IMG/VR virus record: IMGVR_UViG_3300047469_000262
Coordinates: 1-45,197 of that record
From: a virus
Length of the DNA stretch: 45,197 nucleotides
Reading direction: 5' to 3' (one strand)
How positions within the stretch are numbered: position 1 is the first letter of the stretch; each line of letters begins with the position of its first letter. The notes under the pieces were generated by a model. The model was given only the letters and a program-made list of their open reading frames with translations, was not told the DNA's origin and did no database searches. Position numbers and translations under genes: made by a program. Shown piece after piece: positions 13,723 to 45,197 of the stretch.

Positions 13723-15396
13723 TCAATCAGATTCAGTTACAACTTCGTCGTCCGCTGGCAATTCCGCATCTGCCTCAAACTCACTCGCATCGTAACCGCG
13801 ACTCGCCAACAGGTCCTTAACCCACTGCTCCATAGGCGTTTCTCCGCAAATCTGGAGCAGCAGTTCCGTTGTCCGGTTTGCGACGTAGCGGAGCGCCCGC
13901 AGTTCTTCAACGTTATAGTTGACGGTAATCGACTCCTCAGTCATCGCCTTACCGTGTTTATCTACGGCCCATTTGTGCCCCATCAGCGCACCGACTAACA
14001 CCAGGTCATTGCATGTCAATTTGGCTGCTGTGCTAAAACCGCGTCGCAAATCGTGCGCGCGATAATAAACGTCGGTTCCCATTTCTTCGCAGCATTTCGA
14101 AATGGAATCCCCCACTCGAGACAGGTACGGGAAGCGAGTACCATGTCGGCGCGGGAAAACCCACTCCAGGTCTGTGCGCGTTTTGAATCGCTCCCGGAGC
14201 ATCTCGACGATGTAGTCACTCAAAGGCATCTCGCCCACGAATCCTTTCCAGCCCACGTCTCCGGCGCGCACGTCGTAGACACCCTTCTCGAGGTCAAGCT
14301 GCTCCCAACGCATCATCCGCGCGGCACTGTTACGCCAGCCTGCAAGCATCATGATAGTGATAGCCTGCTTGCTGGGCTTATATCGGCGCTTTTGCAAAGA
14401 ATCCCAGAATAGAGGCATATTCAGCGTCGGTATGCGCTCTTTACGACCCTGCGGAGCAACTACTCGCCAGCCACGCTTAACCCTCTTAATGGGATTAGCC
14501 ATGATTAGCGTACCTACGTAATCAAGATATGTGTAAACCCCTTGGACTAGGGTTGCCGCCTGAAGGACCGGCGACGATTCCAACGTTCCTTTGAAACGCT
14601 TTTCATTCCCCGTAACGGAAACGAGGTAGGCTTCAACGTCACGCTGTTCCTTATCGCTCAGACACGTCCACCACTCAGCCGTTTTCCAGCCCGGTTGCAA
14701 ACCTCGCTCCAAACGCTTCCTGATTGCCTGTTGCTCATTTTTATTTCGAAGCGGCTTGTTCTTATCGTCTAGCGCACCAATAGATTTAGACAATTCACGC
14801 TTAACTGCTGCTCGAAGAGCTTCAGCTTCGAAAAGCTCCTTCCATTTACCGACTGATGTATCTTTCAATACAAAATTGCCAGCTAGCGGTTCAAGCCATT
14901 TCCATTGCTTTAAATAAGCAGCCTTGGTTTGGTCTCCGAGACTTGTTTTTGTTTTGCTCTTTCTCTTTTCCTCGAGATAGGTCGGCACGGCCTGAGCGAG
15001 CGTCATTGTCTCGCCGTTTTCCGCGTCTAATTCTGCCGGACTCAGGAAGGCGCGGCGCTTCGCCTCTTCAAACTCTTCGCGAGCGCCCTGCAATGTGTAC
15101 TTGCCCCTGGGTACAGGCCACTTGTCTCGGTGCACCCCTTTAGGTGGCATCGGGTAGTACGGCAGTGGACCGTTTGGCATGGCCACCTCCTTGCCGTCGG
15201 GGCCTCGAAACCGCCAAATCCAAACCTGCTTCCCCTTCGGTGACACCCTGAGTCCGAACCCCCGAGTGTTCTCGTCCCAGAATTCCGCGCCGAGAGTTTC
15301 GAGGCACGTGTTCAGAATGCCGGGACTGTCGAAGTTGCGCCGCTCCGCCTCCTTTCGTTTTTTCGCCGGAGCTTCGGGTTGATTGTCAAGGTCCAT
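13723..15396 (-). CDS. int: P4-type tyrosine integrase
   Basis: A 557-residue tyrosine recombinase, longer than the usual 400 or so. Residues 46-70 (GFGLRVSPKGKQVWIWRF) match the DUF4102 N-terminal arm-binding domain of P4-type integrases. An inserted helical, charged core-binding region follows. The catalytic domain shows Arg in AGWRNSAARMM, His and Arg in AHDLRRGFS, His in LMGHKW and the Tyr in TVNYNVEEL. I start at ATG 15396; the GTG at 15462 lies within the arm-type sites and lacks a ribosome site. It would catalyse integration and excision at attP (15577-15597). Its start faces attP. Confidence 0.92.
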   Translation of the reverse strand: MDLDNQPEAPAKKRKEAERRNFDSPGILNTCLETLGAEFWDENTRGFGLRVSPKGKQVWIWRFRGPDGKEVAMPNGPLPYYPMPPKGVHRDKWPVPRGKYTLQGAREEFEEAKRRAFLSPAELDAENGETMTLAQAVPTYLEEKRKSKTKTSLGDQTKAAYLKQWKWLEPLAGNFVLKDTSVGKWKELFEAEALRAAVKRELSKSIGALDDKNKPLRNKNEQQAIRKRLERGLQPGWKTAEWWTCLSDKEQRDVEAYLVSVTGNEKRFKGTLESSPVLQAATLVQGVYTYLDYVGTLIMANPIKRVKRGWRVVAPQGRKERIPTLNMPLFWDSLQKRRYKPSKQAITIMMLAGWRNSAARMMRWEQLDLEKGVYDVRAGDVGWKGFVGEMPLSDYIVEMLRERFKTRTDLEWVFPRRHGTRFPYLSRVGDSISKCCEEMGTDVYYRAHDLRRGFSTAAKLTCNDLVLVGALMGHKWAVDKHGKAMTEESITVNYNVEELRALRYVANRTTELLLQICGETPMEQWVKDLLASRGYDASEFEADAELPADDEVVTESD

Positions 15397-15420: not shown

Positions 15421-15504
15421 TGTGGGAAAGTTCGGAAAAATCCGTTCCCACAATTTTCCCACAGTTTTTATATGAAAAATGGCTTTTCCCTCATTTTCCC
15501 ACAG
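15421..15504 (+). promoter_or_regulatory. Left arm-type integrase sites
   Basis: TTCCCACA occurs at 15445-15452, TTTTCCCACAG at 15454-15464 and 15494-15504, and an inverted TGTGGGAA at 15421-15428. The longer unit TTTTCCCTCATTTTCCCACA (15484-15503) recurs near 15678. Repeats flanking a core beside int are typical of arm-binding sites. They also overlap the likely int promoter, so integrase could repress itself. Confidence 0.65.
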
Positions 15505-15505
15505 T

Positions 15506-15517
15506 CAGACGCAGGGG
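15506..15517 (+). repeat. Partial core repeat CAGACGCAGGGG
   Basis: Exact 12-bp copy of the left part of the putative core at 15577-15588, placed 71 bp upstream of it. A third, degenerate copy (TAGACGTAGG) lies at 15716-15725. Confidence 0.6.
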
Positions 15518-15576: not shown

Positions 15577-15597
15577 CAGACGCAGGGGACTCAAAAT
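15577..15597 (+). other. attP: Putative attP core
   Basis: CAGACGCAGGGG followed by ACTCAAAAT. Against the phage tRNA-Leu at 15782-15801 it matches AGACGC and GGACTCAAAAT in register, with three differences between them (17 of 20). From memory, AGACGCAGGGGACTCAAAAT is a common form of the D-stem to anticodon-loop segment of bacterial tRNA-Leu(CAA). The host gene would then be the attB site. The surrounding arm-type repeats and the adjacent integrase support an attP. Confidence 0.7.
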
Positions 15598-15677
15598 TTC
15601 CAGCATCTACAAACCGACTGTCTCGAAAGCCTTACTGGACAACGGTTTGCGGCTGATGGAAAAACAGGGGAAAAAAG

Positions 15678-15698
15678 TTTTCCCTCATTTTTCCCACA
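15678..15698 (+). promoter_or_regulatory. Right arm-type integrase site
   Basis: TTTTCCCTCA then TTTTTCCCACA repeats the left-arm unit at 15484-15503 with one extra T. It lies on the other side of the core, completing the P-core-P' layout. Confidence 0.62.
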
Positions 15699-15761
15699 AA
15701 TTTTAGATTTTCTGCTAGACGTAGGAAAGTGAATTTCGGGGGTTTTTGCCCTCGACACCGT

Positions 15762-15846
15762 GCCCCGGTGGTGGAATTGGTAGACGCGCCGGACTCAAAA
15801 TCCGGTTCCTCACGGAGTGCCGGTTCGATTCCGGCCCGGGGCACCA
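15762..15846 (+). tRNA. tRNA-Leu(CAA)
   Basis: A complete class II tRNA of 85 nt with encoded CCA. Acceptor stem GCCCCGG / CCGGGGC, discriminator A, and a D-arm with GGAATTGG. The anticodon stem is CCGGA / TCCGG with loop CTCAAAA (anticodon CAA, reading UUG). It has a long variable arm and T-arm GCCGG-TTCGATT-CCGGC. No promoter is obvious immediately upstream; the attP core lies 165 bp upstream in the same orientation. The anticodon stem differs from the GGGGA form implied by the attP core. A terminator follows at 15872. Confidence 0.95.
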
Positions 15847-15871: not shown

Positions 15872-15895
15872 AGCCCGCTTCGAGCGGGCTTTTTC
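15872..15895 (+). terminator. Intrinsic terminator after tRNA-Leu
   Basis: Stem AGCCCGCT-TCG-AGCGGGCT followed by TTTT. Confidence 0.85.
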
Positions 15896-28569: not shown

Positions 28570-31500
28570 CTAGTTTCTAAGCCCCGCCATGGATATACGG
28601 GTGCTCATTCCGCTCATAATCTGCGACTGCGAGGCGTTGAACGAGCTCAGGTCTTGCGTCGCCACATTCATATTGAAGGTGTTTCCGCCACTTACTTGCT
28701 GGAGTCCCGCAGCGGCCGGCATCGTGAAGCCGTAGCCGTTTCCGCCCACTGTCGATGACCAGTCGGTGCCTCCGACACCTGTGCTATCCGGCCCAAACAA
28801 CGTGGACGTTGAAGAGCTCCCGCCGCCGAACAGGCTTCCAATACCGCTGAATAGATTGCTGAACAAGCTCCCTATGCCGCCGGATGACGATGAAGAGCTC
28901 GAGCTGGTCACGCTATTCAAAGCCTGCTTGAGGGCGTTTTCCAGGCCGGTCGTGAGCTGGGTGAATAGGTTGCTTGAGCCGTTAGCCTGGTCAAAACCAT
29001 TCTTCAAGCCCGTCACAATCTCGTCTGCCACGCTCTGCGACAACTTGCCTTCAATCTGTTGCGAGAGTGTCAGCAGGAATTGTTTGCCGGCTTGAATAGG
29101 CCGTTCCTTTCCAGTCATCACCTTGTCCAGCGCCTGGCCCAGGTCGTTGGCAATGTCCTTCTCAATCTCCTGCTCCATTTTGGACTCAGCGTTAATCTGA
29201 GCCTTCGCCTCGCGGATTTGCTTATTGATAGCCAACTGGTCCGAGATGGGGCCGTTCAGCGCTTTCGCGTTTTCCAGAATCTGCAAGTCCGCTGCTGCTT
29301 CCTGCTTTTTTATTGCAAGTATTTGGTTCTCGGCGTCCCCTTCGCTCAGGTCCCCTTGGGAAACCTGGTCTTTGATGCCTTGAATCTGGTCATCGTATCC
29401 GGAGTTTTTAACGCCAATATCGTCCTTCTTCGAACCGTAGGCATCGTGCGCCAGGTCAAGGCGCTCGTTCTCCTTGATGGCGTCGTAGGCCTTCTGGTCA
29501 ATGGACCCGTCAGGGTTCTTGTGCTCTTGTACCTGTTTGAGCTGGTCGTCGTATTTGTCGGTAATGTCGGAAGTGTCCGCGCCGACGCCTAGCGTCCCAT
29601 GAGCCTTCTCGACCCGCTTTTCGGCCGCATCAACCATTTTCTGGTAGGCCGTGGCTTCTTTTTTGTGCTCCTCATTGATTTGCTCGAGCGTTTTGCGGCG
29701 CTCCATGTCAATCTTGGCAAGCTCCGTGTCAGCGTTCGTGGCAAGAGTCTGCTCGCGCGTCTGAGCGGCAGCCACTGCACGAGCATTCCCCGCCTTCGCA
29801 GCTCTCGCCTCCTTTTCTTTCTCCGCTGTCATGTCCGCAGCTTGCCGGTCCTCGGCTGCCTTCTTCTCAGTCGCGTAGAGCTTTTCCACTGCCGTTCTAC
29901 GATTGGTGTAGTACTCTTCAAAACCAATCTTGCCATCTCGTAAGAGCTGCTTCTGCTTGTCTTCTTCCAGCTCGTACAGGTCCCGTGCGTGCGTAATCGC
30001 GTTGCTAAAGTCAGCTTGGGCATCCTGCATGTCGGCGCCAAGGTCTGGGCTACCGCCATCACCCTTTTTCTTCTTCGCTTTACCAGGTGCCTCGGAAATG
30101 AGAGGTGTCGCCGCTTTTGCTGTTTTAGCATCGGCCTCGGTCTGGCGGGATTGCAGGCGCTTGTTCTCGTTATCCAGTTCCGATTTGTGCTTCGCCGCGC
30201 CAATGTCGCTTCGGCGCTTCATTTCGGACTCGAGCAAGTCGACCATCTGCTTAATGCTATCCCTCTGGTGGCCTCCCAATATTCCCGAGGTTGACCAGGA
30301 GTTTTCGGCCTTCTGCAACGTTGCCTTGCGGTCCATCAGGTCCGTGAGTTTGGCCGACTGCACTTCTTTCGGGTCATAGCTGTTGATAATATCAAGAGCG
30401 TCTTGCTTTTTATGCATCTCCTTGTTTGCGTCAAGGGCCATGACGCCGACACCGGCAACTGAGGAAATGGCCAGGCCCGCCGCAGCTACGCCGCCGATGC
30501 TAAGCGAGCCAAGCAGCCCTCCAATCATTGCGCTCAGCCGGGCTGCAAGTCCGGAGAAGAATCCGCCGAAGGCCCCGGTCGCCGTGGCCAACAGGTTTGA
30601 CGTGCCGGCGGCGATGGATGTTCCGATTCTCCCGAACGCGGCGGGCAGCCGCGAGTCGAAGCCAGCTAGCAGCGCAATCAATCCGTCGCCGAACAAGGAC
30701 ACAAGGCCGCCAAAGGCCGTTTTCAGCGGGCCAATGACTCCCGAAAGGCCTGCAAAGCCCTCACCAAGGGTTCCGAGCGTGCCGAACAGCGACATTGCGC
30801 TCGACGCTATCGACAGGAAAGGACTTATAAGGAGCTTGAACGCCGCGTTGATAGCCATCGTCCCCGCAACAATCTCTCCGAACGTCTTGACGCCATCCTC
30901 ATGCTGCGCAATGAAGTTTGCCAAGGAGGTAATCATGGGCTTCATAGCCTCGGCCCACTTCTGAACGTTTTCGCCCAGTGAATGCACTGCCGCCACGACG
31001 CCCGGGTCCTTCAGGACGTTCGTCAGCCCGCGCAGCATGTTCACGAACACGTCAATCACACCCGACTTGCCAAGCTCCAGGTTAAGGTCGTGAATGGAAT
31101 TCTTGAAGCGATTGATGGCGGTCTGCGGGCTTTTCTCGCTTGCTTCGTCGGACGCGGCACCATATTTGGTGCCCAAGTATTGAGAAAACTGTTCGAAAAA
31201 CGCCTTCGGGTCAATCTGGTAAACCTTACCGTCAGACCCTGCCTTCCCGGCGAGCGATGCCTTCACGTCCGCTTCATTCTTGAGGCGGCCATCTGAATTG
31301 GCAATCAGGAACTGGGAAATTTCCGGGAACAGGCCTTTAATGTCATTAGAACCCAGTTGGCGATAGGCTTCCTTGGTCTGCAGCCGGCTACCGGACAGCA
31401 TCTCCGAGACAGCGTAGAGAGCGCGCTTCTGGCTGCTGTCGTCGATATGCCGAGCCTGGAACATGGACAACCAGCCGTCCATCCCCTTGTTCAGGTCGTC

Positions 31501-32676
31501 GTTGCTCATGCCTTGCGCGCGACCGGCCGCGTACACACCGGTGAACTGGTCTGCCGTTTTCAGATAGTCGGCCCCACGTCGGTTGGCGATGCTGTACATC
31601 TGCTGCTGCTGGACACGCGCCGCACTCTCGTCGTTGTTGTTTGCCGCCAAAAGGCTGTAATAGATGCCGGCGTCCTTGATGCTGTCGGAAATGAAGGACT
31701 GAGCTCCGACCTGGGCGCCGACGATGCCGAGCAGGCTACCGATGCCCATGCCAGAACCCCCGCCGCCCCCGAGACGGCCGAGGTTTTGGCTTCGGATGGC
31801 TGCCAGGCGATTCGCTGAACGCTCGGCCTCGAGCTCCATGGCGCGGTCAGCGCGGAGCTCTATGGCGGCACGGTTCTCTGCGGCCTTCGTCGCGATAGCT
31901 GTGACATTGGCTGCGCCTCTTTGGGCGTTCAGGGCCATTGTTTGCTCATGCTGCTGCGCAAGTGTCAGCCGGCGAGCGTACTGCTGCCCTTCGACGGTAG
32001 CGACTGCCGCTGAGGCACGCGTAACGGCTAAAGCTTGAGTTTGCTCTGTGGACGCCGAAAGCTTTTCAAGGTCTTGGCGATGTTTCTGTCCGGATACGAG
32101 CTGTGACGCCTGAACGCGTTCCTGCAAGAACGCGACGCGGTCTCGTGAAGCAGCGGACGCCAAGTCACTGCGAGCTTTAAGCTCCGCCATGCGTGCCGCG
32201 TGTTCAACTGCCTGCGCCTCGGCTCGAGCATCGGCTTGCTCCTGGGCGAACGCCGCGCGACGCGCTAGCGACTCTTTTTCAGTTTCCGCTTCGCTTGCAA
32301 TTTCGACCTGTCGACGAGCATGACGTTCGGCGTCGGCCTCGGACCGGGCGTTGATAGTTTCGAGGTTAGCGGCGGTCTCGGCCGCCTTTCGCTGCTCGTA
32401 GCTAGCTGTGGTGTCTGCCAGGCGTTGTGCCAGCTCGGCCGTCTTGGTAGCTTCACGCTGACGGACGCCTTCAGTTTTGAGGGCTTCGCCAGCGCGCTTG
32501 GATTCCAGGTCCTGCGCCGCGCGGCCCATACGGGCATAGCTCGCTTCAGTGGAACTGGCGAGCCGTTCGACGCTCTCTTGGAGCGATTTGAGGGAGGTTA
32601 AAAGGCCGGTGAGTCCGTCCGTGCCATCCATTGCAACATTGACACGAAACTCAGCGGCCTGGAAATTTTCAGACAT
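28570..32676 (-). CDS. Tape measure protein
   Basis: A 1,368-residue protein, the longest in the genome. Residues 30-300 are Ala/Glu/Arg-rich coiled coil, and a hydrophobic region with several potential membrane helices lies at about 600-760. Further coiled coil covers 830-1180, with a Ser/Gly-rich C-terminus (SSSSSSSSGGIG). This organisation, and the position after the G/GT chaperones, identify the tape measure. Its length predicts a tail of about 200 nm. Confidence 0.93.
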   Translation of the reverse strand: MSENFQAAEFRVNVAMDGTDGLTGLLTSLKSLQESVERLASSTEASYARMGRAAQDLESKRAGEALKTEGVRQREATKTAELAQRLADTTASYEQRKAAETAANLETINARSEADAERHARRQVEIASEAETEKESLARRAAFAQEQADARAEAQAVEHAARMAELKARSDLASAASRDRVAFLQERVQASQLVSGQKHRQDLEKLSASTEQTQALAVTRASAAVATVEGQQYARRLTLAQQHEQTMALNAQRGAANVTAIATKAAENRAAIELRADRAMELEAERSANRLAAIRSQNLGRLGGGGGSGMGIGSLLGIVGAQVGAQSFISDSIKDAGIYYSLLAANNNDESAARVQQQQMYSIANRRGADYLKTADQFTGVYAAGRAQGMSNDDLNKGMDGWLSMFQARHIDDSSQKRALYAVSEMLSGSRLQTKEAYRQLGSNDIKGLFPEISQFLIANSDGRLKNEADVKASLAGKAGSDGKVYQIDPKAFFEQFSQYLGTKYGAASDEASEKSPQTAINRFKNSIHDLNLELGKSGVIDVFVNMLRGLTNVLKDPGVVAAVHSLGENVQKWAEAMKPMITSLANFIAQHEDGVKTFGEIVAGTMAINAAFKLLISPFLSIASSAMSLFGTLGTLGEGFAGLSGVIGPLKTAFGGLVSLFGDGLIALLAGFDSRLPAAFGRIGTSIAAGTSNLLATATGAFGGFFSGLAARLSAMIGGLLGSLSIGGVAAAGLAISSVAGVGVMALDANKEMHKKQDALDIINSYDPKEVQSAKLTDLMDRKATLQKAENSWSTSGILGGHQRDSIKQMVDLLESEMKRRSDIGAAKHKSELDNENKRLQSRQTEADAKTAKAATPLISEAPGKAKKKKGDGGSPDLGADMQDAQADFSNAITHARDLYELEEDKQKQLLRDGKIGFEEYYTNRRTAVEKLYATEKKAAEDRQAADMTAEKEKEARAAKAGNARAVAAAQTREQTLATNADTELAKIDMERRKTLEQINEEHKKEATAYQKMVDAAEKRVEKAHGTLGVGADTSDITDKYDDQLKQVQEHKNPDGSIDQKAYDAIKENERLDLAHDAYGSKKDDIGVKNSGYDDQIQGIKDQVSQGDLSEGDAENQILAIKKQEAAADLQILENAKALNGPISDQLAINKQIREAKAQINAESKMEQEIEKDIANDLGQALDKVMTGKERPIQAGKQFLLTLSQQIEGKLSQSVADEIVTGLKNGFDQANGSSNLFTQLTTGLENALKQALNSVTSSSSSSSSGGIGSLFSNLFSGIGSLFGGGSSSTSTLFGPDSTGVGGTDWSSTVGGNGYGFTMPAAAGLQQVSGGNTFNMNVATQDLSSFNASQSQIMSGMSTRISMAGLRN

Positions 32677-45096: not shown

Positions 45097-45197
45097 CACA
45101 ACCCCAAGCCTTTCCGGCCTTGGCCGACTTCCAAATCAACCCCCAACCCCAAACAGCTCAACAGCCACCCCCCAACCCCACCGCTCGCTGCGCTCGC
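45097..45197. repeat. 101-bp terminal redundancy (right copy)
   Basis: Exact duplicate of 1-101. Removing one copy gives a circle of 45,096 bp, in which the - strand genes at 199-911 lie upstream of the - strand genes at 44160-45064. Confidence 0.95.

Follow-up and report, generated by a model that had tools for sequence, protein, structure and literature searches.

What happens to a host tRNA gene when a phage attachment site matches only its middle? The window (the whole 45,197-nt stretch that we analyzed) raises this question: beside its integrase gene lie a segment identical to part of a host tRNA-Leu(CAA) and, further on, a complete tRNA-Leu(CAA) (Table 1). We think it quite likely that integration would split the host gene and that the phage's tRNA-Leu(CAA) would replace it, as in tRNA-dependent lysogeny.

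A 101-bp direct terminal repeat (positions 1–101 are identical to 45097–45197) shows that the window is the whole of a circular phage genome, which encodes terminase and tail proteins. Because the terminal repeat marks a complete circular genome, attP is intact. (We also noticed a 51-nt repeat, a possible regulatory or operator element, whose five copies are scattered (1047, 2482, 6843, 9434, and 12064) and have 63–76% identity to the reference copy. Separately, a 1,368-aa open reading frame at 28570–32676 has no PHROG match; the tail region is otherwise recognizable.)

The original prediction placed the attP core at 15577–15597 and had it end in the middle of the tRNA. The match and its abrupt end are real, but position 15577 is C in the window and T in the host, so the exact match begins at 15578 and is 20 bp long. 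All 20 positions are identical to betaproteobacterial-type tRNA-Leu(CAA). The match begins at the D-stem and stops at the first base of the 3' strand of the anticodon stem; directly after it, the window has TTCC where hosts have CCCC. The host sequence given with the prediction was correct. The 20-mer is present in 43 other viral contigs, 40 of which have it as part of an intact tRNA-Leu(CAA), usually with GGTAGACGCAGGGGACTCAAAATCCCCC. By our own estimate, the chance that any host tRNA would match over 20 bp within about 200 bp beside the integrase gene is about 1e-6.

Table 1. Features of the integration module in the window.
Feature	Position	Strand	Basis or remark
Tyrosine integrase P0001 (557 aa, arm-binding type), transcribed away from attP	13723..15396	-	Pfam, PHROG
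Left-arm repeats ending TTTTCCCACA, probable integrase arm-type sites	15436..15505 (15436-15465, 15476-15505)		Repeat family D1
Probable protein-binding site: CAGACGCAGGGG, in a second copy that lies 71 bp to the left of the core	15506..15517	+	Repeat family D6
attP core AGACGCAGGGGACTCAAAAT	15578..15597	+	Same letters as host tRNA-Leu(CAA), from D-stem to anticodon loop
Repeat TTTTTCCCACAAA in the right arm, a probable arm-type site for the integrase	15671..15700		Repeat families D1/D2; TTTCCCCACAAAATTTAGATTTT in Trinickia
Complete tRNA-Leu(CAA) with encoded CCA	15762..15846	+	ARAGORN; Rfam tRNA, 58 bits
Terminator hairpin AGCCCGCT-TCG-AGCGGGCT-TTTT, closing the tRNA unit	15872..15895	+	Inspection
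P0002, the gene nearest to the tRNA on its 3' side; membrane-like protein of 229 aa	15917..16606	+	Homologues
CAAAATTTCCAGC, predicted junction sequence of a window-phage lysogen			

The integrase P0001 matches Phage_integrase (the catalytic domain; 2.5e-12) and Arm-DNA-bind_3 (2.5e-6) in Pfam, and PHROG also assigns it as an integrase. Repeats that end in TTTTCCCACA lie on both sides of the core, which is the usual anatomy of an attP. Thus, the window has one feature of tRNA-dependent lysogeny, a phage tyrosine integrase that adjoins an attP with arm-type sites. Searches of viral contigs for relatives, with P0001, with a two-sequence alignment, with the integrase of the Trinickia element described below, or with P0002, found none. 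Comparing the integrase to 50,697 phage records by tblastn gave no match, and a collection of plasmids gave just a partial match at 24.6% identity. An order-wide search for the integrase found nothing beyond Trinickia.

A search of host genomes for lysogens had been suggested, and it identified an integrant of a related element. We scanned one genome per species (84,980 species) for the 5' half of the host gene plus the core, followed by a base other than C (a C after the core marks an intact gene). There were two matches, one of which was Trinickia mobilis DHG64. (Separately, in a Comamonas metagenome-assembled genome, L046 375–398 on the reverse strand, the 5' half of tRNA-Leu(CAA) is followed by unrelated DNA. 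A different integrase lies just upstream, and that contig has no replacement tRNA-Leu.) Among these 84,980 species, we found no lysogen of the window phage or of a close relative; the nearest integrant is the 17-kb element of T. mobilis, whose integrase is 46–50% identical to P0001 over nearly the full length (50% with E = 1.6e-148; 46% over 554 aa).

In T. mobilis, the left junction (attL) consists of the host promoter, the 5' half GCCCAGGTGGTGAAACAGGTAGACGCAGGGGACTCAAAAT, which ends in ACTCAAAAT, and then foreign DNA. A complete, diverged tRNA-Leu(CAA) lies 165 bp inside attL, followed by a terminator and a homologue of P0002. The genome encodes one P0001-like integrase, and the other junction (attR) adjoins it: there, TATATAGACGCACCAAACTCAAAAT of the element, whose end is AGACGCACCAAACTCAAAAT, is joined to the host's 3' half CCCCCGCCGCAAGGCGTGCCGGTTCGAGTCCGGCCCTGGGCACCA. 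The acceptor-stem halves across the two junctions (GCCCAGG and CCTGGGC) pair with each other, and the distance between the junctions gives an element of 17,432 bp. Two sister Trinickia genomes have the unbroken gene in the same place. They are 86–91% identical to the left flank of T. mobilis, including the core, and on the right the alignment resumes at the 3' half, with 98–100% identity over 54 bp. So, as originally predicted for the window, an integrase related to P0001 has split the orthologous tRNA-Leu(CAA) gene, exactly in the anticodon loop, and neither half is restored. Each sister genome has one match to tRNA-Leu(CAA), and the only complete copy that we found in the draft assembly of T. 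mobilis is the element's.

The window and the T. mobilis element have in common the spacing from core to tRNA (164 or 165 bp), the AGACGYA repeats, the arm motif TTTYCCCACAAA(A)TTTAGATTTT, the tRNA, the terminator, and P0002 (87% identical and in the same position), and attR in Trinickia has the motif TTTTCCCACA in its left arm as well. The two tRNAs differ in sequence. The rest of the element is different: besides the integrase, it encodes a DUF5906 protein, a C5 methyltransferase, and Vsr (L052/L053, 17.4 kb), and it looks like a phage satellite or a defence island. What it shares with the window phage is the module of integrase, attachment site, tRNA, and P0002.

Comparing attL to attR of the Trinickia element places the crossover in ACTCAAAAT (15589–15597 in the window), which covers the anticodon loop plus one pair next to it; for the window phage we infer the same interval. 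The Trinickia attP and attB have only these 9 bp and AGACGCA on their left in common, so the 20-bp "core" of the window exceeds what recombination needs. Part of the 20-bp match may be a recognition sequence for the integrase rather than a remnant of a tRNA, because AGACGCA-NNNN is present twice on the left and both copies vary together (GGGG and GGGG in the window, CCAA and CCAA in Trinickia). Trinickia has AGACGCACCAA and AGACGCACCAA as its equivalent of the CAGACGCAGGGG pair, so the two copies vary together.

The phage's tRNA is as it had been described, complete and in the same orientation as the core, except that the gap is 164 bp and not 165. It is 17/20 identical to the core (repeat family D4), with a changed anticodon stem (CCGGA/TCCGG), and it is identical to the Trinickia host tRNA at 69 of 85 positions. 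The changed stem had been thought to shield the phage's tRNA from the integrase, which we find no support for: the Trinickia attP and attB differ in that stem (CCAAA vs. GGGGA) and recombined nonetheless.

We propose that the window comes from a temperate phage that infects Burkholderiales. Its integrase would recombine attP with the part of the host's probably single tRNA-Leu(CAA) gene that encodes the anticodon loop. This would leave the 5' half at attL, and at attR a 3' half that has no promoter. Neither half would be rebuilt because the identity is too short, running only from within the D-arm into the anticodon stem, and on the wrong side. The diverged but complete tRNA-Leu(CAA), with its own terminator, would then lie 164 bp inside attL and would be charged and take over the decoding of UUG. 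The host would need it, unless UUG is also read through wobble by tRNA-Leu(UAA), which may make the phage's tRNA useful rather than essential.

Phage tRNAs can have other roles, so we also considered that this tRNA might serve lytic growth or counter-defence (by supplying codons or by replacing cleaved host tRNAs), with the match to the isoacceptor arising by coincidence or shared acquisition. Such roles are discussed in PMC11476347 and PMC10865867, and the phage's genes make moderate use of UUG (13.5 per 1000 codons). However, this is the window's one tRNA (ARAGORN and Rfam agree), it is exactly the isoacceptor that integration would disrupt, and it lies inside the integrase-attP module. Furthermore, the cognate tRNA-Leu(CAA), another feature of tRNA-dependent lysogeny, was kept in the integrated 17-kb element, whose other content is different. 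A role in lytic growth or counter-defence seems to us an unlikely explanation.

P0002, the gene beyond the tRNA, has no match in Pfam, PHROG, or PADLOC; it is possibly an exclusion or immunity gene. Homologues adjoin tRNA-Leu(CAA) in the genomes G309 and G368, and the terminator is part of a unit (GTAYCGCAGAG plus the hairpin) that is also found 3' of the tRNA in Trinickia and G309. Across Burkholderiaceae islands, the P0002 family is the first cargo beside tRNA-Leu(CAA) in four of six instances, including the window (L053 12937–13650, L106 from 9577, and L103 and L107 are other members). In G314 and G019 we found P0002 homologues and no tRNA within the loci that were read.

Among 399 Burkholderiaceae genomes, four more have related integrases (G234, G257, G329, and G180). 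G234 and G257, whose integrases have 37–40% identity to P0001 where the sequences match, show canonical integration: the tRNA is whole on the promoter side, and a 3' fragment has been displaced to the other side. In G329, the promoter and 5' half are displaced to one end, and the tRNA is rebuilt at the integrase end from a 5' half that the element carries (L085/L088; G329:C33, about 73147 and 90863). In G180, we saw only a displaced 3' half. Together with the window and Trinickia, these loci show related integrases with three strategies at one site: the element supplies a new 3' half, supplies a new 5' half, or brings a replacement for the whole gene.

Could the window phage itself restore one half of the gene, as these distant relatives of its integrase do? 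The attP sequence contradicts this: its identity to the tRNA spans neither the complete 5' half nor any of the 3' half, so there is no tRNA half to restore with. Also, the Trinickia integrant leaves both halves broken. We consider canonical restoration to be highly improbable.

G309 is a degenerate replacement locus. The host's 5' half breaks off at nucleotide 26, and 191 bp further on is a tRNA-Leu(CAA) whose anticodon loop is interrupted by about 233 nt, followed by the terminator unit and a broken P0002. The insert resembles a group I intron, with an Rfam match to Intron_gpI at E = 0.0011, which is below the gathering score. The interrupted tRNA (L106, G309:C150, 9192–9509) is the only CAA candidate that we found in this draft genome, and the insert also breaks up the integrase's target in the anticodon loop. 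Separately, in another phage family (L013 2230–3231 and L032 around 9385), the integrase has 333 aa and the end of its gene overlaps the attP, which equals a tRNA-Leu 5' half of about 42 nt.

How is the replacement tRNA transcribed? At six loci (T. mobilis, its two sisters, G234, G257, and G329), the host tRNA-Leu(CAA) has the promoter TTGNNN-17-CATAAT (TTGCTC-17-CATAAT in T. mobilis), with matrix scores of p = 0.006–0.08 relative to shuffled sequences. We searched the intervals from core to tRNA (15598–15761 in the window, and the interval in T. mobilis) with a simple scan and a weight-matrix scan. Their scores were at p of about 0.5–0.6 relative to shuffles, and they share no promoter (the best candidates differ). 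A terminator scan from core to tRNA found one weak AT-rich hairpin (15666–15685), at about the rate expected by chance. This geometry, and the lack of a recognizable promoter between core and tRNA, fit with promoter capture, in which a replacement tRNA with no promoter of its own would be transcribed, wholly or partly, from the host's tRNA promoter by way of the severed 5' half. We suggest this tentatively, and we would rate it at somewhat less than an even chance. If it is correct, then the tRNA would be silent in the free phage and would be turned on only upon integration, so that integration would act as a switch, with a built-in coupling to the supply of the lost tRNA.

Alternatively, the gene is split and replaced as we propose, but the phage's tRNA has its own promoter and its position behind attL is incidental. 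The tRNA of phage Fionnbharth does have a strong promoter of its own (PMC10865867), and phage Gaia has a candidate just upstream of its tRNA (TTGCAG-16-TAGTAT, which does not score above shuffles). The host's -10 element in G309 has decayed to CATCAT, even though the replacement tRNA is the sole CAA candidate there. The results of our scans, with no site above chance in either interval and none in common, argue against an own promoter. But this absence is weak evidence, because the weight-matrix scan has low power: the rebuilt tRNA of G329 is necessarily expressed and must use a promoter of the element, and the scan recognizes none above it. The near-constant spacing (164 or 165 bp, at 46–50% identity of the integrases) also argues against an own promoter, but the integrase's arm sites could explain it. 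A point against promoter capture is the predicted disturbance of the element's tRNA: when the read-through RNA was folded in silico, pairing of the acceptor stem of the element's tRNA in T. mobilis was 0.03, versus 0.85 for the tRNA alone; for the window it stays at 1.00. Overall, we give an own promoter close to an even chance.

tRNA-dependent lysogeny was defined in mycobacteriophages, where the phage's tRNA was shown to be required (Guerrero-Bustamante & Hatfull 2024, PMC10865867). Their list includes Gaia with tRNA-Leu(CAA) and a core of 8 bp, and the cores of actinobacteriophages are 8–17 bp (PMC10865867). In the Gaia record, we noticed ATTCAAAA (8 bp) between the integrase gene and the tRNA, in the tRNA's orientation and about 113 bp upstream of it. 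The same sequence lies at the tRNA boundary of attP in Porcelain, a relative of Omega. By our own identification, ATTCAAAA is probably Gaia's core, and the window's layout of core and then tRNA is probably not unique. If promoter capture is correct, Gaia's geometry would make the design recurrent.

Like the actinobacteriophages (Fionnbharth of cluster K4, cluster L, and Gaia), the window phage has a tyrosine integrase with arm sites, a predicted attB in the anticodon region of a host tRNA, a core that cannot rebuild the tRNA (8–17 bp there, 9–20 bp here), and the cognate isotype on the phage. It differs in its probable host group (Burkholderiaceae), in an integrase that has no tblastn match in those phage records, in an integrase gene that diverges from attP, in the lack of a recognizable promoter for the tRNA, and in that the module is also found in a 17-kb satellite-like element. 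The mechanism has been established by experiment in mycobacteriophages. In Sinorhizobium meliloti, Lo5R7ANS-like prophages knock out tRNA-Leu(UAG) and supply a substitute for it (PMC11476347). These, too, are proteobacterial phages that disrupt a host tRNA-Leu in the middle of the gene and bring a diverged replacement isoacceptor, but the isoacceptor is another one, and in phage Lo5R7ANS the tRNA is about 1.4 kb past the integrase gene, behind two genes. Islander-type islands (PMC4383910) share the sub-location of attachment in the anticodon loop, and G234 and G257 have related integrases, but the element's 3' half rebuilds the tRNA. (We dropped the Xanthomonas phages Pfeifenkraut and Langgrundblatt1, which have a similar tRNA, because the stretch that was read around it has no annotated integrase.)

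The concept is already published, and the window is a probable further case, in Burkholderiaceae. Because related integrases show three strategies, the evolutionary order of these strategies, which PMC10865867 left open, becomes testable. Integration vectors that use this att site in these hosts should carry the tRNA. Earlier work had demonstrated tRNA-dependent lysogeny in actinobacteriophages, and a bioinformatic study had reported it in Sinorhizobium; the natural integrant and the empty sites described here extend it to Burkholderiaceae.
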